Source: Rodentolepis nana
Taxonomy: Eukaryota > Platyhelminthes > Cestoda > Cyclophyllidea > Hymenolepididae
Reading direction: 5' to 3'
Assembly (NCBI GenBank): GCA_900617975.1
Contig: UZAE01013105.1
Location: 1 to 26,501, forward strand
DNA: 26,501 nucleotides
The position numbers were made by a program, and so were the translations under genes. The notes under the pieces are model-generated. The model was given only the letters and a program-made list of their open reading frames with translations. It was not told where the DNA came from and did not search any database. This document shows, in pieces, positions 4,001-25,949 of this stretch (position 1 is its first letter; each line of letters starts with the position of its first letter).

Positions 4001-7000
4001 TTTTATATGCCCCAGGGCTTCTTTGTGGAAGAAAACTAAAGTCCCCCCCCCAGAGTGGTCTAAGCTTGATGTCTGTTGATTCTTCTTGCACTTTTCCCTT
4101 TGAAATAGATGCGCACAGTTCTTCAGGATCTCTTCATGCAAGAGCGTTTCCCAATGTCTGACGACGAAGCAGAGGAAGATGAGGATGGACATGGCGGTTA
4201 TTTAGAGGAAGACGCTAGTAGAAGAGAAGTGGTTCAGGCAGGCGGTGAAGAAATTGATAATAAAGATGGAAGTGTTACTGCTAGCATTTCTCGGCGAGTC
4301 AGAGAATGTCCAAATCAGATGGAAAGTATGGAGGTCGATGTATCTCCAGCTGCCTCAGAAAAGGGTGAATCGAGGGCACAATCTCGAAAGCATTCTAGGG
4401 TGAGTTGCGTACACTTGAATTATAGTAATTATAATAATACTCAGATTCCATATGAAACGCTTTAACTGGAGTTAATCAGCCTTCAGTAGCAATATGGTAG
4501 AGATTGAGGGCACCAGCGTCTGTGCCATTGGAAGGTTCAAAAACGTGGATGGCTCCATGAGGAAACTAAACATGGGGATGCAGCTGGTTCTGAGCGTAAA
4601 CTCGTCTTCACACGTTCGTCTGATAGGATGCGCGCCTCTTATCACTGTTCATTATACTTGTTCTTATTTTTCCCCATTTTGCCTTTCATACATAAATCGC
4701 ATTGTCTATTTTGATTATGCTACGGACAAGTTTTATCAAATTTATAAGAGAAATCAGGAAAGATATGATCTGGCAGAACAGAAGAGGGACGTGCGGTCGA
4801 AGGGTAACGTGTATGGTACCCCGAAAGCACTTGAAATATATTAGATAACATTATGTGACAGAATCATTTGTATTTTGTAACGAGTTCTTTTTAGCCTTAA
4901 CGTCATTTGATATTAATAAGTCACTTATTTACTTAATTAATGTTGAGTTTATGCCAAGGTTAAGAATTTGAAAAGGCGATGCCTAATTTTTCAATAATTT
5001 TGATATTTCCTTTCGCCCACTTTGAAAGGTCTCTTCTTTCCTCGCAGGTGGCTACTTTTGTGCTTTCTTTTTGTCTGGATTCTTTTTAGAGAAAAATTGT
5101 GAAGGGCATGACATCTCAATACAAGCCATCACAAGGAGGACCCGATGATCAACAAACTCCAAGTGGTTCTCAAGAGGAGTGCTATTGTTTTATAATGGGA
5201 AATAATCATTTGTACTCCTTCCTCAGAATGCACCACCTCCTCTTTACACGCCTCTTCTTATTGAGGACGAGAGCAGAAGTCATGCAAAAGGAGTATAGAG
5301 AAGAGAACAGAAGCAACGAACAAGTTTCCAACATCCTGTCATTGCGGAAGAAAGGTTCGTAATATTTAGTCTATTCGTTTGCATGACGTTTTATTCCACC
5401 CGGATAAGCGTTATAAATGGCCAGATGCAATTTGGTATTCTTCATCATGTCTTGTGGTTCCTTGCTGGTCACATTGTAGCTGTCGTCATGTATTGGCTTT
5501 TTTTCTGATCGATAATTTGGACCTTTCGTAGTTAACTCACCACCAAGTGAAGCGCCAAATCAAATTCCTAGTATTACCTCTTATTACCCCTTCTAATAGA
5601 TGACAAGGAGCCTGGAGAGTACTATGCACTGGCGTTGAACCTAGTCAAAGAGGTGCTAGATGGTTGTGAAGACGCTCATACCTATGAAGATAGACTGCGG
5701 GATATGTTTGGTATCTACGCCTATCCCTGGTTTACCATGGACCGCATTGTAATGACTCTCGTGAAGCAACTCCAAGCAATAACTCTCGGAGATGAGGTCA
5801 GCTGTCGACTGACCGAAGAATTCAAGAATTACTTCAAACCAAGCGGCAGCCGCTCTCGCAATGATTCGGAGAGAATTATGGAGGGGGTTAGTGAAGCGAG
5901 ATTCATTCCTATGTGAGTTAATTTAATCTGTAATAAGTCGTAATTGTCATCTCACCTAATTAGTGTTTACTTTTTATTCACAAAAAGGAATGCGAATCTT
6001 CTCAGACTACCCACAGTTAATTAAAGCATCTCTTGCTGCTTTCACAATGCAGTAAGTAAAGGCCTTGCTACGTTAGGACGATTATTAACTCACGCCAAAC
6101 AGCGCTTTAAAATGGTATTAATTTGGTTTATCTGAACCAAAGTGGAATCAAAAATCAATTCAGGCGGGATTATAACTCTCTTGACCCTCTTTTTTCCCAA
6201 ACTTGAAGTGGTTGAGGAGTTAATGATTAGTTTGTGCTATTTGGTTTGCGGAAACCTGAAAATTTTGGACATACTTAAGTGTGGCGTTCATCTTCTAACT
6301 CGTTGCCTAGTAGATTGCTGCGATTTCTCAATAACCAGTGGACTAAAGCACCTCTCTACACACCCACTAAAAGGAATTTAGATAAAGGAGATAGGGAAAA
6401 TTATCTCAACTATTTGACATTGCTGTTGTTTTTTTCCTTTCACAGGTCCAATGATATTTGTGGACCGGTGCGAACCCGTTATATGCGTATAAGAAATGAA
6501 GTCAAATTCCAGTACTCTGCCTTCCGACTTTGTGTTCAACAAGCTCTTTCCTCCAATGACGAAGCTGAAGACGACTCAAACGGCGAGGGTAATAATTTCC
6601 AAGGGTCTCTGAGAAGTTTGCCCTCTGCGGACTCCATTCCAAATTGTTACACTTTTGTTATGGTTCGTCAGGCTTCTAAGCTTCTTATACGTCTCAATGA
6701 TCCCAATTACATGCTCAACGCACTCAACAGAAGCCTTTCACAGGATGTTGAACCTTTTGATTATGAGGAGCGTAAGCCGTCCTGCAGTAGTTCTGTTTTA
6801 CCTCTCTCCCCTCGAACACGAGTTAAAGCTGCAAATGCTTTCAAACGTGCTATAGAGGAAGAAACTGGAGAGATACACAGCTGGTATGATTATCTTGCGC
6901 GTTATCTCCTTATTCCAGGCTGTTGGACTGCTGGTCCTGTTTCAGCGAACCTGGTTGCAGAAGTGAAGCCTGTTTTCCTTTATCGTAACGTCCGGAAGTA

Positions 7001-8947
7001 TGTAAAGCGGTTGACTAACCAAGCAGTAGCAAGGAGAATGAGTGAAGCTATTGCAACTATTGATCCACAACCGGAAGAGATTCTATTGAGAAGTGCAGAA
7101 GCAGGAGAAGGATCCTCAGAACAGGAAGATCTTGAGAAGGATATCTGTGTGGTTATGAGGAGGGTCCTGAGAAATAATCTTACAAGGTCTGAGATTTTCA
7201 GAGATTGCTACTCCAGTGACTGTATGCAATCGAGCAGCAAATCCCTGAGAAGTGCTGGTTCAACCCCCAAGGCTAATACTTGCAAGATTAGCTGGTCTGT
7301 TGGTTCCTATGGAATATTCATCCGCAGTAAAAAGGTGGGTTATTATAAGTGCTTTTTCTCCGAAAAAATTTATTGTGAATTTTTAGCAGGAAACCGTATG
7401 CAAGCATTAGATAATGCAGTTCCATGAGATCACTTGGTTATTGTCAATGGCGAAGCAATGCTTTACTATAAAATATACGGAAGATATGAATCAATTTGGA
7501 ATAAGAACGACACTTCTGTTAAGACCGTGATGTGCTCAACAGAAGTGGAAGTCGGTGAATGAGGGACTATTCGAGTTCCAGATTCGTCTATTTTTAATTT
7601 TGCTTATTCGAAGTTCAAACTACATGATTTTTAGTGATTTTCAAGCCCCGCCTCTGACACATACCACTTAGTGATGGTGATCGACCAACATTAGCACCTT
7701 CTCATTTTCGAAGAGTCCATGCTGATTCTCCTTTAGCCTTTCTTTTCGTGGGTTTTATGCTTTCAGTATGTTTTGGTAGTCTGAAACAATCTCTTTTTTT
7801 GAAGGAAAGGAGTCTACACACATTTTTCTGTTGATACCCAAAGTAACTTTCCCTTAGATTTCTAGCTACCTTTCAATGTTTGCATGCAATGCCTTGTTTC
7901 TCAAACGTAGTCTCTTGACCCCCTATGTTCATCGATTTGCTTCCATGTTCCGACTCACGCACATTTAATTATGCCCTACTTTTTAGTCACAATTTCAGAT
8001 TCCTCTTTAAGAGACTACCGTTTCCTCTTCAATCTCCTGTACCTATATTCTTCGCTATTCATAATTCTCTTCCTGGGGTCCCTTAAGCGACATCACGTGT
8101 GGTGCTTTGGATCTATAAGGTTTCTCTGAGGAGTCATTTTCTGCCAATAATCGTACGTTTTAACGTGCTTCTGTTTTAAGTAAATGACATCTGATCAGTA
8201 GAATTTGTATTAATCCTAAGCCTCAAAGTGAATTTGCATAATGTATAGATCTTAGAAGTCCAACTCCCAAGTATTCCAGTTGCACCTTTGTGAGGTCAAG
8301 TAATTTGTTATGTTCAAGGGAATCTAAGCTAAGAACAGTGGACATCGGGGCCGTCAACTGCGATCAATGCAAGTATTTGCACATTTTTGGCTCCAAATAA
8401 TTATCCACGTCATTTAAATTCAACCTTAGCCTGTAATCACATGTTTATGTGAGCAATTTACGAGCCAATTCCCAACACTCAACTTCCTACCCCCACCTTA
8501 TTCAGCACACTTTTCCTGTATTATTTAATTCCAGTTAATCTACCTCTTTTCAAACTGTAGAATCGTCCCATAGTATCACCAGACAGAATGCCCAAAGCTG
8601 CCGAGAGGTTCCGTGCCTATCAAGCCAAGTGGCTGGAAGAAAACGGAAACCCAGACCAGATTGAAGCAATTATGGCTCTTTTCAAACACCATTCTGGCTG
8701 CTATGACGGCGAAGAAATCCAAAAATCCCCAGCTTTAGTAGCAGACCAGAGCGATGAATTAAAGCCCGAAGTTGTTGTAGACCAAGTGTTTGAAACCAAC
8801 CAAACAACAATCGAGCCTTCTATTCCAGAAGATCCTCAAATTCCAACTACTTCTACTACTGCAGTGGAAGTAGAGAAAGAAACCCCTTCTACCACCACCA
8901 AGGAACCCAAAGTAGAGCAAATGGAAGTGTCATCGGCTACTGAATAA
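1061..8947 (+). CDS. SIN3: SIN3 transcriptional corepressor, C-terminal part (5' incomplete)
   Basis: SIN3 is the nuclear scaffold that holds class I histone deacetylases and docks them on DNA-bound repressors. I join seven exons: 1061-1331, 2616-2900, 4109-4399, 5090-5354, 5600-5912, 6446-7334 and 8561-8947. All junctions are GT-AG and the phases fit, giving about 900 codons including the stop at 8945. The HDAC-interaction domain shows YGDKAVDVIHGL, then VVPIVIQRMNQKEAEW and KNYLRSLDHQG. Exon 2 carries LIIHHLKRQ. Exon 3 holds an acidic linker. Exons 4 and 5 carry the SIN3 C-terminal domain (NNHLYSFLRMHHLLFTRL, then YEDRLRDMFGIYAYPWFTMD). Exon 6 has EVKPVFLYRN; the last exon has RFRAYQAKWLEEN, then a Thr/Glu/Pro-rich tail ending near EQMEVSSATE. 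The PAH domains are off-window. Introns 1332-2615, 2901-4108 and 7335-8560 exceed 1 kb; apart from a retroposon copy in the first and poly-C runs in the first two, I see nothing in them. Confidence 0.9.
1825..1837. repeat. poly-C tract (13 C)
   Basis: Uninterrupted run of C in a SIN3 intron. Other long C or G runs are at 3308-3319 (12 C, followed by GGGG), 4043-4051 (9 C) and 11805-11821 (17 G). Run lengths of this kind are often miscounted in assemblies. Confidence 0.9.
2194..2492 (-). mobile_element. short retroposon, copy A (in SIN3 intron 1332-2615)
   Basis: This stretch is clearly similar over about 300 bp to the reverse complement of 10673-11029. Shared blocks include CCTTTAGTTGACTTCA, CATACAGTGGGGT, TGAGTAC and the terminal block around CACCACGT-GAGGTAAGTCTAT. 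Both copies stop at the same edge (CACACCCC on this strand), which marks a true 5' end of the element (GGGGTGTG in element sense). Unlike copy B, the A/T tail is degraded and I see no target-site duplication, so this copy is older. It has one unit of the 44-bp block that is doubled in copy B. Element class is unknown; no long ORF and no clear Pol III boxes. Confidence 0.75.
3308..3319. repeat. poly-C tract (12 C followed by 4 G)
   Basis: Uninterrupted C run then GGGG in the SIN3 intron 2901-4108. Confidence 0.9.
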
Positions 8948-9147: not shown

Positions 9148-12100
9148 AAAGGCCGATCTTGTAGGCTGATCCTGCAGAATTGTGTATCTTTGATGTTTGA
9201 GGTTCTGTAACGGCCCATTCATACCAAACGTGGCGTGGGGAAACACACCGCCATAAATGAAGCTTGATTTCCTGACCGGCTTTCACGGGAATGGCAGTAT
9301 TCAGTGGGAAAACCATAGGGAACCATGAGAACATGTTTGGACTATGTCTATCTGGAAGAATGCCTTGATGTGAGACGTTATTTTTATAAGCAAAATTGTG
9401 ACTTACTTAGCGTAACATTCTCATAAAGGACAGCTTCAAAGTAGCCAGCAATTCCATGGATGACACCATCATCGTTGGAGATGAAAGTACGAGTGCAATA
9501 GCGTTCGTTTGAGCCTGTCGCAAGATCTATTAAAAAAACAGAAGAATGAAAGGGGTGGGGTAAGGGCGAACAAACCCTTTCTGGGATGAGTGAAGGTGAA
9601 TGCTTCTTGTGGTGCAGCGAGTATTTTACAGTTTGTCAGTCGCACAACGTATGGTGTTTCTGAGGACTCCTGTATACGGTCGCTGAATTTGGACTGCAGA
9701 GGAAAGAGGTGGGGTGCGCGTTAGTAGGGAAAAAAAGTAGGTGAGTGGTGTTAGATGCCAACTTACATAGCTTTCTGCTCGCAGGGCATTGATGTGGATG
9801 TGCTGGGATTGAAGAGGCGCAATATATGATGTGTAGGAAGCAGGAATACTAATACCACCATCTGAAATAGAAAGGATTATTTATAAATAATCGTCGTCCC
9901 TGATACACTTCGGCTATAATAGTGAAAGAAGACATGTGAATAATAGTATTTACGGATTAATCAGCAACGACTTCCACAGATCCTGTTTAGGAAATAGAAC
10001 ATATTTGACTCTTGCCTTAGCCAATTTCGAGTAAAATGTTGATGGAGAGATAATACGGAGTAACTCCCGAAACGACCCCTACAACGCATTGGAAGCTAGT
10101 TGCAGGATCGTTGCGAAACCAAAGATCGTGATTTCTAATAACAATGCCCATTCGAGAAACCGAAGAAGAATACACTCGCACAAAATGAACATTAAATAAA
10201 ATTCTAGTGTTCGTGGTCTTACTTTCTTTGTTAACAAAATAAAAATCGAATAAAAATAAAGCCAAGGTTCTACTTCCGAATCAGCAACCAGATTTCATTC
10301 TATCTGTGTTTTACCCAAATGCATCCAGGAAGGAAGGATAAGAATTTTACCTGCTTATATAGGCGAAAAAACACCACACGCTTTCTTTGCCCCTCTTTGA
10401 CCTCTTTCTTTCTGGATTTATATCCCAGTAAGAGGCCAGGTGACAGTGTTAATTTGTACCAACGAGCGTATTACAATTTTGACCTGACGATATCGCAAGA
10501 TCGGTTATGGACTGATAGGGAATCGAACCCATAATCTCTGACATGGGAGGCGGCGTGCGCAATGACCAACACGCTACTCAGGTATCAAAGCAAAGATAAT
10601 CTACTTGGCGCCCGAGATAACTATTTCGCTTCAAAAAGGTCAAAGTATAGGTAGTTGTAGTATTGTACAGATGGGGTGTGTGATAGACTTACCTCCACGT
10701 GGTGCACCCTGGGAAACGCATACTCATACGGCAAAAAAGTCTATTAACCGGCAGCTGACATGACTTCAAACTACAATCACCCCACTGTATGTCAAATTCG
10801 ACTTCTCTTTCAATCTACCATGACCCCACTGTATGCCATATTTGACCACTTTCACAGTACTCACATCACCTTTCATCTACCTTTGTGTCTGTCTCTTTTA
10901 CATAGTTAAAACACTCTTTTGTCCCACCCCCCCTTCTCGACTTTTTGTCGCTTTGATGTTTCTCATCCTCTCTGTGAAACCTGAAGTCAACTAAAGGTCT
11001 AATTATAACTATCAAAAATAAATAAATAAAGTATTGTACAGATTGCTCACCTTTGAGCATATGTTGAGCACCATCAAGACATTCCGGACTGAGTTCATTG
11101 TCACCAAAGGACCCTAACAATTCGCTCACAAAAATGTCTGCTTTTTCTGCTGGCGGCTTGTCCAAACATCGCATGTCACCGGGTACAAGGTGGACATCTT
11201 CATTTGCCCATTCAGTTTGAAGTCGTTGCTAAAGTACGAGGAATAATGAAAAATATTGAAACAGTCAACTGTTGTACGTGTGCTGTACGTTGACGTTAAC
11301 AGAACTATAATAAAAATAAAATATTCCACGGCCGTTTAGGGAACCTTAAAATTAAGTAGGCAGCAGATTTCCTGGAGATATACTCATGAGGAAATTGCAT
11401 TCCACTACACTTCTTGTTGATTAGATTCAACAAATACTATTGGCCAGCCACATCACTGGACGTGTAACCCCTCAGATGAGTACATTGAAACAACGTGTAT
11501 AAATACACACGCTTTAAACCTTGAGGCAATAGACCGACGTGGCTTCCCAGTTACCTACACGAGGCAAATTATTCCTTTAACGCAGATCTACCCCATAAAA
11601 GCATATTTCAGGTTTGTACTGTAGGGTAATAAAAGCACAGTGATTTGAATAAATGTAGGCAAAACAAACCTTGAGAGTAAGGAGGGCATTGCGATTCTTT
11701 TCAAAAACGTAGATCCGAATAGGACAGCCTGATCGACGACTGGCCTGAAGACTGGCGTCAACAAATGGACCTTGACCAGCACCCAGAATGTAGATAATCT
11801 ATGTGGGGGGGGGGGGGGGGGCATGAGGAGAGACACGCAATTAGAGTAACTATTAACAATCCATCTTAAATTTAACAACTGAAGAACTGTATAATGCGGT
11901 GTTATTGTTATGCACCGGCTTTTCGTAGGCAAATAGAGACAAGCATTACCAATTTAGAGGAAGATCATGCAAGATTTATGACGGCCGGTTTAATAATAAT
12001 AATAATAGGAATAAATAATAAGCAATTAACTAGGAGTGGCTTGATTGCTTCCCCAGACCCGAGCATGGAGATTCAATATTGATAAATCAGTGCTCAAGGG

Positions 12101-15100
12101 AAACAGTATACCGAAAAAATATTGCATTCTCTTTCAAATCACCTACTTTTTGTTTAACTTACACCAACTATGCAGACTTGCTTTCGTTTCCAATGGCCGA
12201 ATATGCCAATAATTCACTTTTAAATAAGATTCTAAGCTACATATATTCAGATATCCGTCTCGTCTTTTTGATAATCGCCTAAAAGCATTTGCATTAAAAA
12301 TACGACACACTAAGAGAAAAAAACACTTGGACGAATAATAATAATAATAATAAACATTAAGCCCATTCCAAAACACCAATACTTTCAGGTAGACCGATAA
12401 AAAAGCAACTAACTTGTTTATTGACCGCAGGATTTACACCATCGCCTCCTGGATTGGAGCGAGACAGCAAAGCCAGATTAAGCGCCTGGAAGAAGAGCAG
12501 AAATTAGAAAACACGAAATGAAGACTAGGAAGTGAGCAAAAACACCTCATTGGTACGCACTTCTTCATAGGCTTTGTACTTATAAGGATCCATTTGGAAG
12601 ACATCATAAGTGGCTGAGGAGAGATTATCCTGCAGTGGTTGCAGAGGCTCCTGAAAGGGCAAGAGAAATGCAACGATTTAATAGATAATTTAATGCACCA
12701 AACGATAGCAGAGAACAAAAGATTAGACAGAGGAAAGAGCCATACTTTCCCTACTTGAGTTAAAAATATGCCAAAAAGAGTGGTATAAGTAGATGCGTAT
12801 ACCTCCAGACACGTTGACTTTGATTAGTTGCTCATTGAACTCAAGTTTGTCAAGCAACCTCAGTGATCAGCACCCAGTACTGACGCCTATACACGCCGTA
12901 ATTCCCCCTCTCATTCAATTCCAATTACCCATGTCCCTGGCGATCTCTGGATCTTTAAATATGGAAAAAGGCTGTTATACCCTGTTAATCCTAAGATGGC
13001 AATTAGATTTTGAAGGGATCTGAAAAAAACATAATTCGGTCTAATTTGAAAGGTAGCTTTGCCGTCGGGAAGTTACTTCAAATTAAAGGAAACAAAGTTG
13101 AACTGAAGTGTGATCAATGGCTGCCGACAAGTGGGCACGTAGAGGTTGGCAAAGTGTCCGGCTTTACTCCTGAATTTTTGACAGCAAAATGCATATTGCC
13201 CTCATGTTACTGGCTAGAATATCAAATTGCCTTTAAAGCCCTCGGACTCTCAACCATTCCTGTAAATTTATCCCACTTCTCAACTCTTCCCAAACTCCAT
13301 TCTATATAACGAAATAATTAAATGTATCTTCGATAAATAAGCGGTCTTTCCAATCCCAGACATGATAACAATAGAAAATTTCACAGTTTTAATCAAAGTA
13401 CGGAAAGTCCAGTAAAATAGTAACGCGGAGGGAACCAAGAAAAGGAAACAGAGAGAGAGAGAGAGCAAATAGTTTTTGTTTCGTAGGGTTGCAGAACACC
13501 CTACGATTCCACAAGTCGAATTTCACGATTCGTCCACTGGATTGCAGCAAAAGCTTGTCTACGAGGTTCAATGCTCATAAAAGGGGTTTATTTAAAGATG
13601 AAGGAGCAGTCACATGGCTTAATAAGTAAATTACACATAAACAGTGTGAAATTTAATCTACTGCTTAACTAAAAAATAGTGAACGGTGAAATACGAACCA
13701 TTTATGGAACTGTAATTCTAACCTGAAGCCGATTTTCATAGCCTAGTGATTGCTTCTCGTATGAAGATCTAGCCTCACAAGTGCATTTCCAAATCCAATT
13801 GATGTATTGCCTATAGACGACAAGACCTCGTTCATGCCAGCTTTCTCCGGTTAAAATTACCTGAGCGTTTAGCTAAAATGGGAGAAAATAAGAGGTAAAA
13901 AGGCCCAAGTAAATAAAAATCTTACAACTTGTAAACATCAAGCGACACAACTTCTTGAAGCACAGCTGAACAAAGTACGTTACTGCACTCCATAGCCTTA
14001 TCACAAAGTAACGCTGTCATACATAAACCAAACTATTACTTCAATTGTGACTGGCTTTCTTTAATTTAACTTTAAAAGAAGGCTGGAATCTGTTATCGGT
14101 TTAAATAAATTTATAGCAGACTGGACATCTAAAATAAATGTTAATCACACTTACAAAGATTGTGATTAATACGCATAACACTATAAAGAAAAAATTGCCT
14201 TGAGAAATCTCCTCAAAATGGCTTGATGTGGACGGGAAAGAATCGGGAATCCCTTGGAGTTAGAGATGAAGAGGTTAGTGGAAAGGGCCAGAGCAGCCAC
14301 GGGTTCACTGATCCATCTGGATATTACACTCTCTTCGGGTAAGTCGGGGGTCACTTCAAGGACAAGGAACAGGGACTCACTCACGGTTGGACCCGCCAAA
14401 GTTACTAACTCATTCCACCAGTGCCATGGTGATGAGGCCTGAGAAGAAGGATCTATTAACGAGAGATTAAGACAAGGTTAGAAAGCATACCCCGCTGAAA
14501 AAGAACAGGTTTTTCAATTTTGCTAAGAGAAATGATAATTCATCACTGTGACAAAGGAAACTGGTAAGAGCAGCTTCAAAACTCCTAAAAATTTTAATCT
14601 CGATCATAGAGTTTACAGAAGCTCAACTTATTTAACCATCACTCGTAGTCATTACGAAATAGTTAACTCATGACAGTCAAAAATAAAACGGTTAAAAACG
14701 GGTAATCAGACTTCCTCCTACGATAGAATGAAACCAGTCAAAATTTTTCCAGTTAAAAAATATAGTCGGAAAATGCACATACCAGTATCTTCACAATCAC
14801 CGCGAGTCGGCAAACACATTGGAACCGTGATCCAAAACTAAAGAGATACATCATTATTAAAAACTGTAATTCGCAAACGAACCCGAGATGGGGTCACTTG
14901 GGATTTAATAAATGCTGTCAAAAGTTGCGCCAGTTTGACATTATTGGCATGCCGAAGAGGAATATGAATGGCGGAAAGAGAAAGATGGGCGGCCCAAGCG
15001 AGCTCCTTTTTCAGGGCGTATTGGGAAATAAATGAATGGCCTTCATCTGGGCAATCGCAATCTATCCAACCTGATGTGTATCCTACAGTGCATTCGGACA

Positions 15101-15346
15101 TGGACAAGCCATTCTCGAAATGAACATCTACTGATCCAACAAATGGGAGCAAATCATCAATTTCTTGGCACGATTTTGGTTTATTTTTGCAAGCAGGGAA
15201 GAGGTCAACTCCAACAAAGGAGAAACTATGATTATGACTAAAATATAAAAAAATAGGATTTACCCAGCCTTTGAGCTAATCTGAAATTGATTGTGAAGGC
15301 TTTCACAGTTTTGCAAACGAAGTCCAACGAGATTTTTTGCCTCCAT
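9146..15346 (-). CDS. PRMT5: PRMT5, type II protein arginine methyltransferase (complete)
   Basis: PRMT5 symmetrically dimethylates arginines on histones and Sm proteins, normally with MEP50. Thirteen exons, in transcript order: 15346-15264, 15237-14883, 14837-14783, 14452-14199, 13872-13723, 12650-12546, 12485-12414, 11798-11670, 11228-11051, 9861-9767, 9693-9576, 9526-9407 and 9363-9146. They sum to 1932 nt: 643 residues plus stop (human: 637). Residues 1 to about 290 are the TIM-barrel part. The catalytic core shows [11 protein letters not shown] with Phe317 (the residue that favours symmetric dimethylation), SAM motif LGAGQGP (363-369), FEKN (Glu391), GDM (419-420) and the double-E loop [11 protein letters not shown] (Glu437, Glu446). 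The C-terminal barrel has [19 protein letters not shown] (Trp585) and VWYEWAV, ending IGL. All expected catalytic residues are present. The start is the first Met after an in-frame TAA 12 nt upstream. One intron (14198-13873) appears to be GC-AG. The introns at 9862-11050 and 12651-13722 exceed 1 kb; the first holds two retroposons. Confidence 0.95.
10505..10585 (-). repeat. tRNA-derived SINE head (A and B boxes)
   Basis: On the minus strand this carries a perfect Pol III B box, GGTTCGATTCC (10529-10519), and an A-box-like TAGCGTGTTGG (10576-10566), 47 nt apart start to start, as in tRNA genes. The region looks like a tRNA body, but the anticodon arm does not pair and the T stem is broken, so it is not a working tRNA gene. 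A tRNA-derived SINE or decayed tRNA copy is the best reading. The 3' boundary is unclear; unique-looking sequence continues to about 10260. It lies inside the PRMT5 intron 9862-11050, in the sense of PRMT5. Confidence 0.6.
10659..10672. repeat. target-site duplication, left copy
   Basis: The 14-mer AGTATTGTACAGAT is repeated exactly at 11030-11043, directly flanking the retroposon. The bases just outside differ, so the duplication is exactly 14 bp, as expected from LINE-type target-primed insertion. Confidence 0.85.
10673..11029 (+). mobile_element. short retroposon, copy B (in PRMT5 intron 9862-11050)
   Basis: This is a 357-bp element with a defined 5' end (GGGGTGTG, shared with copy A) and an A-rich 3' tail (AAATAAATAAATAA), between perfect 14-bp direct repeats. 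These are marks of a LINE-mobilised non-autonomous element. I see no A/B boxes in it, no ORF and no terminal repeats, so its origin is unknown; it may be a SINE of unfamiliar type or the 3' end of a LINE. Antisense to the element, and therefore sense for PRMT5, it shows GGAG|GTAAGT at 10695-10687, a strong 5' splice-site sequence. It entered 7 nt inside the intron, just after the donor GTGAGC (11050-11045). Confidence 0.85.
10766..10853 (+). repeat. 44-bp tandem duplication inside retroposon copy B
   Basis: Two diverged units, 10766-10809 and 10810-10853, share a CCCCACTGTATG core in the same place. Copy A has only one such unit, so the duplication arose in this copy or its source lineage. 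Confidence 0.7.
11030..11043. repeat. target-site duplication, right copy
   Basis: Exact repeat of AGTATTGTACAGAT at 10659-10672. It begins seven bases into the PRMT5 intron, immediately beyond the donor hexamer at 11050-11045. Confidence 0.85.
11805..11821. repeat. poly-G tract (17 G) next to a PRMT5 acceptor
   Basis: In the PRMT5 sense strand this is a 17-C run ending a few bases before the acceptor ACATAG of the exon 11798-11670. It therefore takes the place of the polypyrimidine tract of that intron. Confidence 0.9.
11990..12007. repeat. (TAA)n microsatellite
   Basis: Six near-perfect TAA units in the PRMT5 intron 11799-12413. A second AAT array lies at 12334-12353 in the same intron. 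Confidence 0.85.
12334..12353. repeat. (AAT)n microsatellite
   Basis: About seven AAT units in the PRMT5 intron 11799-12413. Confidence 0.85.
13451..13465. repeat. (GA)n microsatellite
   Basis: Seven and a half GA units in the 1072-bp PRMT5 intron 12651-13722. The rest of that intron shows nothing I recognise. Confidence 0.85.
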
Positions 15347-15914: not shown

Positions 15915-16674
15915 ATGGATCCTACTGAGTTAGAGTTTATCGCTGAGGATGAGCTCGTAACTATTATACCTCGAGTTCGAATGGAAACTGTTGATCTTCT
16001 CGATTTGCAGGTCGGAGTTTCTTGTATTTTTTCTATATTATTCATTATCCTTGTCACTTGATATTTAATTGGTATTTGGTGCTGTTCGCTTATTTTATCA
16101 TAATTGTCTTACAATTACTTTATTTAAAGTTATTCTTATATGAAACAAGGTTGGTCCATTTCAACCCAATGTACCTGTTGATGTTCCATACTGGATCGCA
16201 TTCTTTCTTCGCCAGCAGCAAAAATGCCGCATAATGCCTCCTTCGTGGTTTTCATTAACAAGATTAACTGAATTCAAGGAAGCGGAAGACAACGATACTG
16301 GTTGCACTACCCCTCCCCATCCCCATTATGCGGAATTGGCAATTCTCCTTCTCCAGCATGCCTCAGACGATATTTCAGAGTAATTTAAGCATTTTCTACT
16401 AGTATCTTTGCCCTTTAGCCGTGAAGAAATTCGTACTCTTGTTAAAGACATCTGGGACGCTCGAGTGGGGAAATTTGTGGCATCTGTAAACAGTTTTATT
16501 CTCAGTGGTGCTGTTACTGCTCGTGTTTCACAACTCACACCCTTGGAGTTATCTACCGCTAGGAATCTACTTACTAACTCTCTTGACCAGCTAGCTGTTA
16601 TTCGCGCAACCAGACAACAATATGAAAGTAGAACTAATCTTTCTCAAAGCAGTTTCTCAATGACAGGTGCATAA
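15915..16674 (+). CDS. GINS2: GINS complex subunit 2 (PSF2)
   Basis: PSF2 is one of four subunits of GINS, which joins CDC45 and MCM2-7 to form the replicative helicase. Three exons, 15915-16010, 16150-16379 and 16419-16674, sum to 582 nt: 193 residues plus stop (human: 185). Phases fit at both introns. The N terminus MDPTELEFIAEDELVTIIP is almost the family signature. Exon 2 gives VGPFQPNVPVDVPYWIAF, QQQKCRIMPPSW, then HYAELAILLLQHASDDI. Exon 3 gives EEIRTLVKDIWDAR and ends with a polar tail. The second intron is only 39 nt (16380-16418, GTAATT to CTTTAG); without it the frame hits a TAA at once. The gene faces PRMT5 head-to-head and the 124-residue gene tail-to-tail. Confidence 0.94.
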
Positions 16675-19860: not shown

Positions 19861-20316
19861 TTAGGCAAAGATTTAGGTCCTCTTTATTATTTGAGTTGCC
19901 TAGTGTCAATATTACTGCAGAGAGCATTGATTTTACCAAAAGGTATATTTATCTAACGACTACGCTTAATCAGCTTTGGCATGTCCTTAAGATGCTCCTC
20001 TCTTAATAATATGATTATCTAATGCAGAATTTGCAGACCGACACTTTTAATGTGCGCAAATTTATACCTGAGTAGAATAGATATCTATAAATACTTCCCA
20101 TGGATCAACAAATCACCAAGCTGCTTATATATATCCGGCAGGAATATTCCTCTTTATTGGTTCCACTGATTCATAAAAGTAAATCATTTAAGCGCAAAAC
20201 TAGAAATGCTTTTTTAACATATAACCAATAAAAAGCAATCGTCGTCTGTAGCCTTGAAAATAAATGTTTTAATATTTAAACCTTACAGAATTAGCGTAAT
20301 CAGCATTTCAAGTGCG

Positions 20317-23300
20317 ATGTTAAAAGTAAATGCAGTTAATAATTTACTTAATTGTTTTATGCAATATTAATCCGAAACAAACTGTAAAGCTGATATTGTC
20401 TTTAGAAGGAAGAGAAGAAAATAAGAAGGGTAAATATTTTGACAAATCAATACTTTGACGCAATTTATTTATTTGGTTTTACTACAGTATTTACTTTTAG
20501 GACGATAAACGGTATGTCGGTCATATGGCTTGAGATTCAAATTTATTTGCGTGGATAATCAATAATGCTATGGTTTGCTTTTTCAGTCATCTACGTAGAA
20601 TCCGAAAGAAAAGTAACTCGTCTATGAATTTTGTACTTTAATTACAATTTCTTTTAATTTTTTAGATGATAATATTGATAATGGATTAGAAAATTTGTAG
20701 TAAGCAAAGATACTTTGTGATATCTAAAGTAGCAATTATTGGGAAAAGGAGACTATCACTTTAAAAGAAAGTTATCCATGTTATCAAATTATTATTTTTA
20801 GTGGTCCAAAAGGAGACGTAAGTACTTTCGTGTCTTTGTCTCAATTTTGAAATTTGAAGTAAAATAAATATTCATTAGGTCTGCTAGAACTCTAAAGGAA
20901 AAGTAATACTAAAAATTTGAAAACAAACATTGGTAACAATTTTCTTTTAACATTTTAGAGTGATTCAGTTTTGCAACCTGTTTACATGCCAACACCTGTA
21001 CCTGAAGAAACTGTAAGATTTGAAATCGCTTGCTTCGTTTTGAACTTTAATAATGCCTTCTTTTACACTTCTAGGAGCAAGGATTAGGTAAACTGTTTCA
21101 GAATAATAAGGTATGCGTATTAAAACAACTTTAGAAAATGGTGGCGATAGATAACAAATTTTGACTTCAATCAAGTAGTGGGGGCAATTTTTTGGGTTTT
21201 AAATGAGGGTTTCCGATGGAAGAAGTTGATTAAATGTAATCACTTTCAAGATGCGAAATCTATACGGCTTTTAAAAGGATCTAAAGGTTTGCTGGCTGAG
21301 TTTTTTAAAAAATAAAATCCATGGTCTATGTGCACATATTTTTTGTAAAAAAAACTATATTTGCTTTGGCACATCACTACAACCTATGGGTTTGGAAGGA
21401 TTTAATCCGTGGAATAATATTAATATAAGGAATTAAAAAGATTCTATTAAGAGTTCGCATCTATTTGGTCGATTCGTTTAGTTTTCAAGATTCAAGCTCA
21501 ATACAGCGATCCTAATTTCCTAGACAAAGATGGTCCGTGATTTTTTGGCCTTATAAACAATTTGACTTAACTGAGCCCCTGACCAATCGGTTGCTGATCC
21601 TCATTTCGTCTAATAAAGAAAACGGAATTTGATGTCAGATAAAATAAATTAGAATTATTTAATAATAAAATATTTTATGTTTATTTTAGCCTGGGGGTCA
21701 ATCTCAAGATAAGAAGTAAGCAAATTTGTTGAAAAATGGGCTAGTTTGTATAAAGTGTATTGTAAAATGTGGTTTTCGATTCAAATTTAGGCCTGAAAAT
21801 GTAAGTTAAACAAACTACCTGTACAAACTCCAAGATAAAGTTATTCACTGAATAATTAACTTATATTTTTCTTTGTATTATAGGAATATGATAATTCCAA
21901 GACTTCACAGTAAGCAGATTAATTTGACTAACTTGAATTTTGCCCATTTTTTAAATATCCATCTTTTAATTTTGACTTCAGACCTCAAGAAGTAAGACTA
22001 AATATTGAAGAAAGCGTTTATTAAATCATAATTTATAATTTAACGAGTATTCGCATCGATTTTGCAGCCTTTTGGTCAACTGGATTCTGAGGGGTGAGGA
22101 AATAAATAGATCGCACATGAATGTGTCCTTGGTAATTTTTTTAAGTAACAAATTCTTTCATTTTAAATTACAGATCTCCAAGGGTAAGATGCAGGAAGGA
22201 CATGGGATATATTTATAATACTTAGCTAAAAAGAGTGCACAGACGATTTCTAGGAAGGAAAGTCGATTTTTTCCTTGCTATGCAAAAGTACGATAATCTC
22301 TCGATTGCATGGATAAAATAAGCTCAAATAGAAATGCTCACGTAGCGTCTCCGCATTGGCAGTTGTTTGAACACTGTGAAATGACGCATATGCACAAAAT
22401 GGTCCCCCAAGGACACAAATGTAGGCATTGGTTGCTTCGGAATCGTCTTCAACACTTTAGCCTAGATCTGGGTAATTTGAATAGTATGCTACTGAGTGAC
22501 TGCTACACGCATATCCATTTCACCTCTTAGAAGTCGTTTGCACTTATTTGTACCTGATGCGTTATGACATTTGGAAACAAATTCCTAATTGCGGAAACAC
22601 TGGAATATGCAATATTCAATGTTCATGGAGCGGTTCAGTGAAAGAATATCAAAGTTTGCGAATAAATAACTTTATTTTGCGTTTTTTGCTCTGCAATGTA
22701 AAAAGAGTTATTGCATGTAATCGATTAATAAGAAGACCAGTGATTTACTTTACTAATTTGCAATTGTAATCAACTGAAAGCACTTTCTTTCACTTTAGCA
22801 ATCGGGTCTTGAAAGGTGAGCATTCTTATGCAACTAACTGTACTTATCATTACCACCACCACCACCATCATCCTCATCATCAACCAAAATTACGCAATTC
22901 ATTGGAAGAGAGAGGATTGTTTTGGATTTAGTTTCTACGTTGGGAAATTTATATTTATCTCAAGGTCGAATCAAGCCAATTCGACCTTGATTTCTGCCCG
23001 ACAATATTCAACAGGGAAAGCTAGCCTATGAGATAGGTTTTCATAAAAATTTTATTTTATTAATATCGGTGGAAATAAAGTTATCCAAAAANCAATGTTC
23101 AAATTCATTATCACATTGTTTTTTTAACCTCTGCAGCACTAAGACTCTTTTGCAGTCCGTTTAAATAAGAGAACGTGGTGATTTCAATGTTGAATTTGCG
23201 TTTTTTAAGTTCTTTTTATAAAGTAAAAGAATGAAATGACTAAAAATCGCAAATTAAACAGTGTAAGTCATAATATTAATTACTTTATTTTACGGTTTTT

Positions 23301-25949
23301 CTATTATTAAATTTTAGTCGACCGGTTTATAAGTACGCTATTGCAGCAAGTAATTTTTCATCTGCTGATCGGAATTATTTGACTCTCCAGGTGAGACGAA
23401 AATCTCATTGTTTAAATTTAATTCTCCTATTGAAAAAACTTAAAGTTCGTTTCAATCGTAACTCGCTTTTTCTAAATTCAACAAATTTTCGGATTCATTT
23501 ATTTATGTATTATATATGTTGACATTAAAGTAAATTAATTTTGTTGAAATGTCTTCGATAAAATATAAAATGTGTGTCTTTCTTTTGCTTCGTCTAGGTC
23601 AATACAACTCTGGAAATTATTCAGATGGTGAATGACACAACTTGTTATGCCAGAAACTTGACGACGGAGGAGCTTGGATTAGTCCCAGTGGGGAACATTA
23701 CCTTGGTAGAGGGCCTTCCAAGAGGTTCATCAACCAATTCTGATACAACTCCTCAGTCCGTCCGGGACTCCACCATTTCTAACTCTTCAAGGACTGACGA
23801 GTCGGTTGATTTGGAACCGAAAGATGAGTTGTTAGGGCAATCTCCAGAGTTCAAAAATGCTTTAAATGAAAAACTCAAACAAGTAAGTCTCACTCCAAAA
23901 AACCTCGTCTTTTGTTTGAGGTCTTTAAGCAATCGTAAATGCACATTCACCTTAGTTTTCCAACAATTTCTTAAAAATTAAAACGTATGTAGGAAGAGTT
24001 ACTGAGAAGCTAGAAGAAGTTGGATGATACATACATACTCACTTTATGTCGTGTTGGTAAATATTCGATAATCATGCATTTGGAATTGCCTAACAAAATT
24101 CGCTTCATTTTAAGGTAGATATTCATCCTCATCCAAGACCCCATGGAACATTCTGGAATTTCCGATTTCGACCCCTACCTCTTAATGCGCTCAATTCGTG
24201 TCTTTCACACAAAACCAGACTTGATCTAAAAAAATATTTTAGAGAAAAAGAGTAGTGGTGAAAGCACTGTTTCTTTTAATCTAATCACACAGAGAATAGC
24301 CGCTACATCTATTAATTTAATTGACTTCAATTCGTTTTGACCTTGAATTGCTGACAAAGGTATTAGCACCTAAGAAAACTTAAGTGAAATAAGCTAAACT
24401 ATTAAAATGAAATCAGATCCCCTTAAATATTTCCTGTTTTAATAAATTTTTAGAAACCAATAAATCCAGTTAATAAAGATAGGTAGGAATGCATTGTACA
24501 TACATATCATTATATTATTTTTTTATGAATATAATTCGTAGTATTATTACTAAAACGTGGAATCTACCTAATTTTTCGCGTTTTTAGGCCCCCAGATATT
24601 CCTCTCAGACCTGAGGTCAGGGTATGTTACAAATTGCTCATAATTTAATTCAAAAATTAAGAAAAAATAAATATTTTTTTATTTCAGGCCAACTTAATCC
24701 CGTACGTTTTGCTTTTAAATAAAGTTGAACGATGAATAATTGCTTGAAGAAAGGTAATGAAGATTTTTATAGGCCGAAAGCTGAGAAAACCAATCCAATG
24801 ACAATGGATATGACTGTAATTAAAAAATAATTACAATTTATAAATCAATTAATTGAAATTAATGAAAATTGAGGACCTTTATTTTAACACACATTGGTTA
24901 AGTACCATTTTTAAATAAATTGTCATCATTTAGAACGTTTGGCTCAAGATCCATTCACTTCCGGAGATGGAAACTTCGGTGAACCCGTCATACAAGGTCA
25001 TTACACCTGATAAGATCAAAAATGTAATCCTATGCTCTTGGCATAGTTTTCTCATCATATTTGCATTTAATCACAGAATGGCGATGTTGTTCAGTGGCTT
25101 GACTACAATCCAGCCTACTTATCGAACACTGCAGCATCACTTGAACCTGGTAAATTGGTTGAATGTCTCCAGTGGAATGGAGAATCAATAGTCCTGCCTA
25201 GTAGCTGCGTTCGACTCCTCACATCCGTCGAGGAAATAGCCGAGGCGATGACAAAACGACCGAGGGCGCAGGTTTTGAACAATTTCACTGCCTCAACAAA
25301 AGATGAGCTATCAGTTAAGGTAATGAATCCTTCCAGTTAAAAGCCCTAATGACATTAATTTAAAGTAAAGCAATTAAAACCTATATAATTTGACGACCTA
25401 AGGTGACAAGATTAGAGCTTTATAAGCGGAATAAGACCGCAGCAATTCTTGAGCCAATAGGGCAGAAATGTAAGCGTCCAAATTGCAACACAATTACGCG
25501 GTCATAAGCTGATATTAAGGCACTAGGAGTACCATTATTTAAAAGCCATTCCATCATTTGTTGGTGCCTTTACTTCCCCCCAAAACAGCACAATTCATTG
25601 ATACCTCAGGGTGCACTAATGTTGGCATCAAATGGAAGAAGTTGTAGTGAAGTCACTGTTTGTTTTTTTTGTTTGTTCCACTTCTGCTTCTGTTTCACAC
25701 TTCATGCAGTGTGTAGACGCCTTTCTCCTACCCATTTTACTGTAAACCACTCCAAATGGCTAGTTATTTAAGTAGCATGAGCACTTTTAAATTATTTCAT
25801 AAACACATTTTTCATTGAATTTTTAGGCTGGTGAAATCATATACCTCATGAAGCAATTGGATTCCGATAGCTACATGGCAATAAATAAGTCGAATAAACG
25901 CGGCCGGGTTCCAAGTGATGTTTTGAATATTTTACTAGCTCCAGGCTAA
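20317..25949 (+). CDS. SH3-domain protein encoded by a 24-exon tiny-exon gene
   Basis: Exons: 20317-20325, 20406-20429, 20501-20511, 20587-20612, 20666-20699, 20802-20817, 20959-21012, 21075-21110, 21690-21715, 21791-21800, 21884-21909, 21982-21991, 22068-22093, 22174-22183, 22799-22815, 23318-23390, 23598-23882, 24454-24482, 24588-24621, 24688-24701, 24773-24815, 24934-25023, 25077-25319 and 25827-25949. They sum to 1269 nt (422 residues plus stop); every junction is GT-AG and in phase, with no internal stop. The N terminus is strongly basic (HLRRIRKKN), followed by a polar Gln/Pro/Glu linker. The first SH3 is about 118-174 (ASNFSSADRNYLTLQ, then LGLVPVGNITLVE); PPDIPLRPEVR is a possible SH3 ligand. 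About 322-349 is a shortened SH3-like stretch (LPSSCVRLL). The last SH3 is 363-419 (VLNNFTASTKDELSVK, then GRVPSDVLNILL). There is no signal peptide; a cytosolic adaptor is likely. Family unknown. From 20666 onward I am fairly sure; the Met at 20317 and the first three introns are less certain. Confidence 0.72.
21690..22183 (+). repeat. tandem array of three 26 + 10 bp exon pairs
   Basis: Exons of 26, 10, 26, 10, 26 and 10 bp alternate (21690-21715, 21791-21800, 21884-21909, 21982-21991, 22068-22093, 22174-22183), with introns of 72-83 nt. Each pair adds exactly 12 codons; the 26-mer ends in phase 2 and the 10-mer restores phase 0. The 10-bp exons complete KPEN, QPQE and GSPR; the first and third 26-bp exons both begin CCT and share GGTCAA. 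Pair starts are spaced 194 and 184 bp. The exon just upstream (21075-21110) is 36 bp, the same length as one pair but unsplit. This points to duplication of a two-exon unit. Confidence 0.75.
22854..22882. repeat. (ACC)/(ATC) trinucleotide repeat
   Basis: An imperfect ACC then ATC run in the 502-bp intron 22816-23317 of the SH3 gene. Confidence 0.8.
22960..22990. repeat. perfect 12-bp hairpin in an SH3-gene intron
   Basis: Arms TCAAGGTCGAAT and ATTCGACCTTGA pair perfectly around a 7-base loop (CAAGCCA). It lies in intron 22816-23317, between the tiny-exon block and the first SH3 exon. Confidence 0.8.

Follow-up and report, generated by a model that had tools for sequence, protein, structure and literature searches.

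A ladder of sixteen tiny coding segments in a predicted SH3-domain gene of the tapeworm Rodentolepis nana

Introduction

Contig UZAE01013105.1 of the dwarf tapeworm Rodentolepis (Hymenolepis) nana (assembly GCA_900617975.1; 107.1 Mb, 4701 contigs) raises the question whether a long run of coding exons, some of them 10 nucleotides (nt) long, can be a real part of a gene, and what kind of gene this would be. The window analysed here is the whole stretch of 26,501 nt. A preliminary description, made from the letters alone, had read fifteen consecutive exons of 9–54 bp as the N-terminal half of a 422-residue SH3 protein and had placed them beside the micro-exon genes (MEGs) of flatworms. We found that this run of exons, referred to as the ladder, is real as an observation on the sequence and was confirmed to lie beyond chance. 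The explanation that we favor, and regard as probable, is a 25-exon gene in which a ladder of 16 segments in open frame belongs to an SH3 adaptor that has a flexible tail and stays inside the cell, with intron definition as the predicted mode of splicing for the tiny exons.

Results

Structure of the gene

The gene model occupies positions 20317–25949 on the plus strand of the window and contains 25 exons with 427 codons and a stop. Every intron is GT-AG, phases are consistent at the junctions, and a single open frame results. The ladder comprises the first 16 coding segments (20317–22815), each of 9–54 nt, which join in frame to exon 17. The phase agreement that had been noticed thus holds across the ladder and into that exon. 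The size range given in the preliminary description also stood, and its count became 16 segments, the first 9 nt being the coding part of exon 1 only. The model product has 427 residues, and the earlier figure of 422 was reproduced by skipping the 15-nt exon at 20888–20902; since a model without this exon fits both the 15 exons and the 422 residues, it was probably left out. The coding sum of the ladder is 350 nt, or about 117 of 427 residues (27%), which falls short of an N-terminal half. As described before, most ladder introns (12 of 15) are 53–83 nt long; the remaining three measure 102, 579 and 615 nt, so that 13 of 15 lie between 53 and 102 nt.

The exons are listed below with their reading phases. 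Four public protein models of the family are referred to: P0001 of R. nana, the NCBI model (313 residues), P0002 of Hymenolepis weldensis (447), P0003 of Anoplocephala perfoliata (169) and P0004 of Hymenolepis diminuta (101). The blind chain is the result of the detector search described in the next section.

Exon 1, 20317–20325, plus strand: coding part only (9 nt, MLK), with ATG and donor gtaaatgc; P0002 likewise starts M-x-x-K-E
Exon 2, 20406–20429, plus strand: 24 nt, phase 0-0; exact in blind chain; homology
Exon 3, 20501–20511, plus strand: 11 nt, phase 0-2; exact in blind chain; homology
Exon 4, 20587–20612, plus strand: 26 nt, phase 2-1; exact in blind chain; homology
Exon 5, 20666–20699, plus strand: 34 nt, phase 1-2; exact in blind chain; homology to RKKxDNIxN
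Exon 6, 20802–20817, plus strand: 16 nt, phase 2-0; frame and splice sites; the blind chain took the longer 20802–20831
Exon 7, 20888–20902, plus strand: 15 nt, phase 0-0; frame-preserving if skipped; the blind chain took 20879–20902
Exon 8, 20959–21012, plus strand: 54 nt, phase 0-0; blind chain start 2 nt off; P0001 begins within this exon, with a peptide that agrees with the donor used here
Exon 9, 21075–21110, plus strand: 36 nt, phase 0-0; exact in blind chain
Exon 10, 21690–21715, plus strand: 26 nt, phase 0-2; first half of unit 1; exact in blind chain
Exon 11, 21791–21800, plus strand: 10 nt, phase 2-0; second half of unit 1; exact in blind chain
Exon 12, 21884–21909, plus strand: 26 nt, phase 0-2; first half of unit 2; exact in blind chain
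Exon 13, 21982–21991, plus strand: 10 nt, phase 2-0; second half of unit 2; exact in blind chain
Exon 14, 22068–22093, plus strand: 26 nt, phase 0-2; first half of unit 3; exact in blind chain
Exon 15, 22174–22183, plus strand: 10 nt, phase 2-0; second half of unit 3; exact in blind chain
Exon 16, 22799–22815, plus strand: 17 nt, phase 0-2; long introns before and after it (615 and 502 nt), as for no other rung of the ladder
Exon 17, 23318–23390, plus strand: 73 nt, phase 2-0; start of the first SH3-like segment (SH3_1 below cut-off); PVYKYAI identical in H. weldensis
Exon 18, 23598–23882, plus strand: 285 nt; remainder of the SH3-like segment begun in exon 17, plus a Ser-rich linker; tblastn match to P0002
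Exon 19, 24454–24482, plus strand: 29 nt, phase 0-2; when left out of training it outscores the alternative exon of P0001 at 24115–24197
Exon 20, 24588–24621, plus strand: 34 nt, phase 2-0; PPDIPLRPE, kept in P0002
Exon 21, 24688–24701, plus strand: 14 nt, phase 0-2; peptide present in P0001 too
Exon 22, 24773–24815, plus strand: 43 nt, phase 2-0; peptide present in P0001 too
Exon 23, 24934–25023, plus strand: long form (90 nt, to 25023, as in P0001) or short form (63 nt, to 24996); the 9-residue extension is absent from P0002, P0003 and the paralogue
Exon 24, 25077–25319, plus strand: 243 nt; middle segment and start of the C-terminal SH3; equal length in the paralogue; P0002 match with E 5.0e-24
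Exon 25, 25827–25949, plus strand: 123 nt including the stop; remainder of the C-terminal SH3 (Pfam SH3_2, 1.6e-10); last exon of the paralogue also 123 nt

With the short form of exon 23 the product has 418 residues instead of 427. Its two donors score alike (short 5.4, long 6.1 bits, the long one being within the training set), and the short form is likely the conserved one, judged from sequence comparison, because the extra nine residues are missing from P0002, P0003 and the paralogue, whose exon has 63 nt. A candidate acceptor (score 3.6, exon start 20289) was seen at 20289–20316, just 5' of the ATG; exon 1 might be trans-spliced, or it might be a short internal exon.

The ladder against chance

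Donor and acceptor position weight matrices (PWMs) were trained solely on exons 17–25 of the same gene (8 donors, 9 acceptors), and the best in-frame chain of exons of 9–60 nt and introns of 45–130 nt was then compared with 200 dinucleotide shuffles. In the block 20300–21130 the chain scored 46.4 (shuffle maximum 23.1) and in the block 21600–22200 it scored 34.0 (shuffle maximum 24.1), and not one of the 200 shuffles reached the score of either. The second block returned exons 10–15 exactly (6 of 6), and five of the eight exons in the first chain were exact (exons 2–5 and 9). The weakest internal acceptor was that of exon 7 (PWM score −0.9). One of the top chains of the window, 24454–25469, uses training exons of the detector and was discounted as evidence; two further chains of short predicted exons were observed at 7202–8556 on the plus strand (18.7 and 28.7).

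Composition and frame pointed in the same direction. Exons 2–16 had a GC content of 0.375 and a T content of 0.232, compared with 0.255 and 0.388 in the cores of 12 short introns, and none of 5000 random placements within the ladder introns matched the GC or the T value. Scored against the codon-position composition of exons 17–25, the proposed frame obtained 11.3 bits and the other two −3.4 and −27.0, while 208 of 20,000 random per-exon choices of frame equaled it.

Tiny exons elsewhere in the genome

It is possible, at a tentative level and compatibly with the explanation that we favor, that tiny exons are common in R. nana genes, with the ladder at the far end of an ordinary distribution. 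We scanned a genome sample of 195,708 bases from 20 places on both strands (40 strand scans). A chain of at least 40.1, the score of the window chain 21482–22815 (exons 10–16 together with filler exons that we disbelieve), occurred in just one scan, which argues against this alternative. That highest sampled chain (locus L018, minus strand, spanning 4847–6209) overlaps a derlin-like gene (DER1 at 6.8e-9 over a 70-residue stretch in frame 2), showing that the detector finds real genes. The two best-scoring predicted exons of the derlin-like gene are 27 and 27 nt long, that is, tiny exons in a conserved R. nana gene. This observation favors the alternative, as does the paralogue of the ladder gene, for which one tentative chain likewise gives small upstream exons (30, 20, 54 and 102 nt). 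However, when each exon was charged a penalty of 8, the ladder blocks scored 31.2 and 22.5, compared with 27.9 for the derlin-like chain, the best of the sample, and 16.8 for the next; at a penalty of 9 the blocks scored 24.5 and 16.0 and the derlin-like chain 17.9. At both penalties the first block thus exceeded all sampled chains and the second all except the derlin-like one. One identified gene is a thin basis in both directions. Other high chains of short exons in the sample were found on the plus strand of L016 (8539–9505, 35.2) and the minus strand of L029 (6299–8258, 36.0).

Homologues, paralogue and protein character

A protein search with the joined product, the check proposed in the preliminary description, found P0001 and ACTXT7_001289 (P0002), the latter at 45% identity over the whole query. 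At E≤1 these were the two proteins returned from 4597 candidates and again from 7995, and a short query at E≤0.1 returned two others, P0003 and P0004, from 403. Aligned with the model, P0002 showed 51% identity with long conserved stretches; it is a homologue spanning the whole model and alone among P0002, P0003 and P0004 carries a comparable tail. Residues 1–35 matched the start of P0002 better than all 2000 shuffles (z 6.1), and for the whole tail 2 of 2000 shuffles were as good locally and none of 2000 globally. Exons 1–5 have independent evolutionary support at the level of sequence, and exons 6–16 rest on the detector, genome-sample, composition and frame tests. No homologue from Echinococcus, Taenia or Hymenolepis microstoma appeared in searches limited to 0.55–1.75 times the query length, which is weak evidence of absence. 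When the ladder DNA was searched against the R. nana genome, the sole match was the ladder itself.

The genome also contains a diverged paralogue on contig C263 (G000:C263:18699-19264, minus strand; loci L008 and L009), with 39% identity over the part encoded by exon 24. By eye, P0003 is closer to this paralogue than to the ladder gene. The last three exons of the paralogue measure 63, 243 and 123 nt, the lengths of the short exon 23 and exons 24 and 25, so this gene structure seems to have persisted in both copies after the duplication.

The C-terminal SH3 domain (residues 370–422) scored 41 bits with Pfam SH3_2 (cut-off 21.8) and 35.2 with SH3_1 (cut-off 22.9). Residues of about 118–178 are a candidate for a further SH3: with SH3_1 they scored 13.4 bits, below the cut-off of 22.9, and the corresponding part of P0002 scored 12.8. 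Matches to hSH3, the helically extended SH3 of FYB/ADAP, were below the Pfam cut-off of 25.7 in both the model (14.6 bits) and P0002 (18.2 bits), and a separate Pfam scan of the middle segment gave no family. The predicted structure of P0003 (169 residues; mean predicted local distance difference test score, pLDDT, 67.3) contains one clear SH3, and at least one fifth of its match rows cover just residues 110–168. Tandem-SH3 structural matches covering the part before this domain were superpositions with root-mean-square deviations of 12–20 Å and were discarded, leaving the middle segment as putatively SH3-like; the predicted structure of whole P0002 (mean pLDDT 32.7) was discarded as well. The protein start is highly charged: by hydropathy alone, the highest 15-residue mean from windows starting at residues 1–26 is −1.13, compared with 1.45 in the whole protein. 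Both the SH3 domain and the charged, non-hydrophobic start are in line with the earlier reading of a cytosolic-looking SH3 protein. The sequence suggests that the product likely acts as an SH3 adaptor inside the cell and that its N-terminal tail is flexible; we infer both the disorder of the tail and the adaptor function.

Evidence against the ladder

Several observations weigh against the ladder as modeled. Exons 6, 7 and 8 were not exact in the blind chain (6 and 7 were replaced by longer overlapping exons, and 8 was 2 nt off). The longest shuffle chains had equal exon counts (8 and 6) with lower scores; exon number alone therefore says little, and it is the score that discriminates. Three of the 40 sampled scans reached the 34.0 of the second block, and just one of them was matched to a gene. 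The part of the tail encoded by exons 6–16 showed no significant similarity to P0002 (residues 36–117 were equaled by 468 of 2000 shuffles, residues 64–117 by 349 of 2000), and P0002 is itself a predicted protein. Besides, P0001 starts inside exon 8 and joins exon 8 to exon 18, skipping exons 9–17.

The missing homology, the NCBI join and the three sampled scans together favor the alternative that exons 6–16 are partly a false chain and that exon 5 or 8 is in reality spliced straight to exon 17 or 18. We consider this unlikely. Exons 10–15 were found again exactly by a detector that had not been trained on them, with a score that no shuffle reached, and the composition of exons 2–16 as a whole differs from that of the introns. 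Moreover, the NCBI join omits exon 17 and with it the PVYKYAI that H. weldensis shares. P0001 also replaces exon 19 with an 83-nt exon at 24115–24197 that has weak sites (acceptor 1.2, donor −2.1) and is likely a misprediction.

The repeated 26/10 exon pairs

In exons 10–15, lengths of 26 and 10 nt alternate three times, each pair running through phases 0, 2 and 0 and encoding 12 residues, and exon 9 (36 nt) equals the sum of one pair. A threefold repeat of a unit of two to three different exons arose in 159 of 400,000 draws from the length pool and in 217 of 400,000 permutations. These figures would fit growth of the tail by duplication of a two-exon unit of 26+10 nt, with sequences that have since diverged. 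Other results point away from it. When the null was loosened so that repeats of one exon length counted too, 2568 of 400,000 sets of uniform lengths and 33,971 of 400,000 pool draws did as well. The 36-nt units resemble each other poorly, with 14, 17 and 13 identities of 36; the highest of these was attained by 0.2% of shuffles, in a test of six pairs. When exons were aligned together with their introns, 3, 43 and 136 of 300 shuffles equaled the units, which speaks for no convincing repeat in the DNA, and the three pairs that no shuffle of 300 equaled, among 45 tested, all lay outside the triple. Inferred from exon lengths and phases and noticed post hoc, the duplication is plausible but unproven.

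Splicing mode

Exons of such small size are regarded as refractory to exon definition. If the ladder is spliced in the worm as modeled, splice sites would be paired mostly over introns of 53–102 nt instead of across exons below the size for exon definition, and the lengths of 13 of the 15 ladder introns fit such intron definition. Introns of this size stand on both sides of 11 of the 15 ladder exons after the first (2–8 and 11–14) and on one side of exons 9, 10 and 15; exon 16 has them on neither side. Exon 16 is therefore predicted to be the weak rung of the ladder and would need an intron-bridging factor such as PRP40; if it were skipped, the resulting frameshift is predicted to end the protein after 115 residues, ahead of the SH3 part. 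Six FF-domain matches, which might include PRP40, were found in the R. nana genome, on two contigs; FF domains occur outside PRP40 as well, which weakens their bearing on this proposal. Because 11 of the 15 lengths are not multiples of three, the ladder would mostly be included whole or lose in-frame units. According to passages of a Caenorhabditis elegans study (PMC8378409), micro-exons independent of PRP-40 have very short flanking introns and dependence rises with intron length; the unc-13 micro-exon is independent of PRP-40 given a short upstream intron.

Other features of the window

Stretches of a PRMT5 gene were observed on the minus strand at 10866–11228 and 14838–15275 (PRMT5 5.9e-20, PRMT5_TIM 1.4e-13; three of eight open reading frames scanned had a family). 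A match to the GINS-complex helical bundle lies on the plus strand at 16384–16674 (22.4 bits, cut-off 22.3).

Discussion

Is the ladder gene a MEG, a gene type that varies a secreted protein by leaving out one symmetric tiny exon at a time? Several features suggest so. MEGs occur in tapeworms, with 52 in H. microstoma according to the parts of Olson et al. 2020 (PMC7653826) drawn on here. Size and runs of tiny exons also fit, 20 of the 25 exons being shorter than 70 nt and 19 being of micro-exon size (≤51 nt), including 15 of the 16 ladder segments, the first of which is the coding part alone. However, the definition in the same passages asks for at least seven exons, for half of the exons to be both shorter than 70 nt and divisible by three, and for a run of at least four such exons. 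The gene has 25 exons, but just 5 of them (6 with the short exon 23) are of this kind, and their longest run is three (exons 7–9). Passages of Li et al. 2018 (PMC5825161) put about 80% of the coding region of a MEG in symmetric exons of 6–36 bp and describe the products as nearly always secreted or membrane-anchored; here such exons hold 84 of 1281 coding bases, the start is non-hydrophobic and an SH3 domain is recognizable. A single skip would preserve the frame for exons 2, 7, 8 and 9 alone and break it for the other 11 of exons 2–16, so that MEG-style variation would be open to four ladder exons only. Membership in this class is therefore very unlikely, and the earlier placement beside the MEGs found no support under the exon definitions of both studies. 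That the gene is a decaying pseudogene, to which a fast-diverging tail might point, is scarcely credible given a frame open over 25 exons, the 51% identity and long conserved stretches shared with H. weldensis, and related proteins in H. diminuta and Anoplocephala.

Returning to the 25-exon gene with an intracellular product, a broader proposal may be put forward, although we regard it as doubtful: a second flatworm micro-exon architecture, in which asymmetric tiny exons would stand in frame-restoring pairs between near-minimal introns, each duplication of the 26+10-nt pair would add 12 residues to the disordered tail of an adaptor inside the cell, and one rung with long introns would switch the SH3 half on or off. 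No description of a flatworm SH3 micro-exon gene was found in the open-access literature searched by title and abstract start, most subscription journals lying outside this scope. The preliminary remark that no description of the combination was known agrees with this, and novelty is not provable. If the ladder is true, the possession of many tiny exons would be separated from host-interface variation through skipping of single exons, and the divisible-by-three filter used in MEG counts would miss a gene like this one. If it is transcribed as modeled, the gene would offer a ready-made test of the splicing of exons down to 10 nt in animals. There is also a practical side, since the public models of the family span 101–447 residues and that of R. 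nana is without exons 9–17.

With the MEGs of Schistosoma, Echinococcus and H. microstoma the ladder gene shares its occurrence in a flatworm, a long run of tiny coding exons, resistance to gene finders and a fast-diverging product; it differs from them in its mostly non-multiple-of-three exons, non-hydrophobic start, SH3 domain and conserved large 3' exons. Runs of tiny exons are known in intracellular proteins of vertebrates. For example, vertebrate troponin T, an intracellular protein, has its N-terminal tail encoded by a run of alternatively included mini-exons. The ladder likewise would encode an N-terminal intracellular tail, but most of its single skips would break the frame, and the protein is unrelated. 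A parallel in intron size is the tcer-1 case of C. elegans, where, in the passages of PMC8378409 that deal with it, a tiny exon lies beside introns of about 50–100 nt and PRP-40 is not needed. The ladder introns are alike, whereas the C. elegans cases concern single exons and the ladder gene has 16 segments, with exon 16 between long introns.

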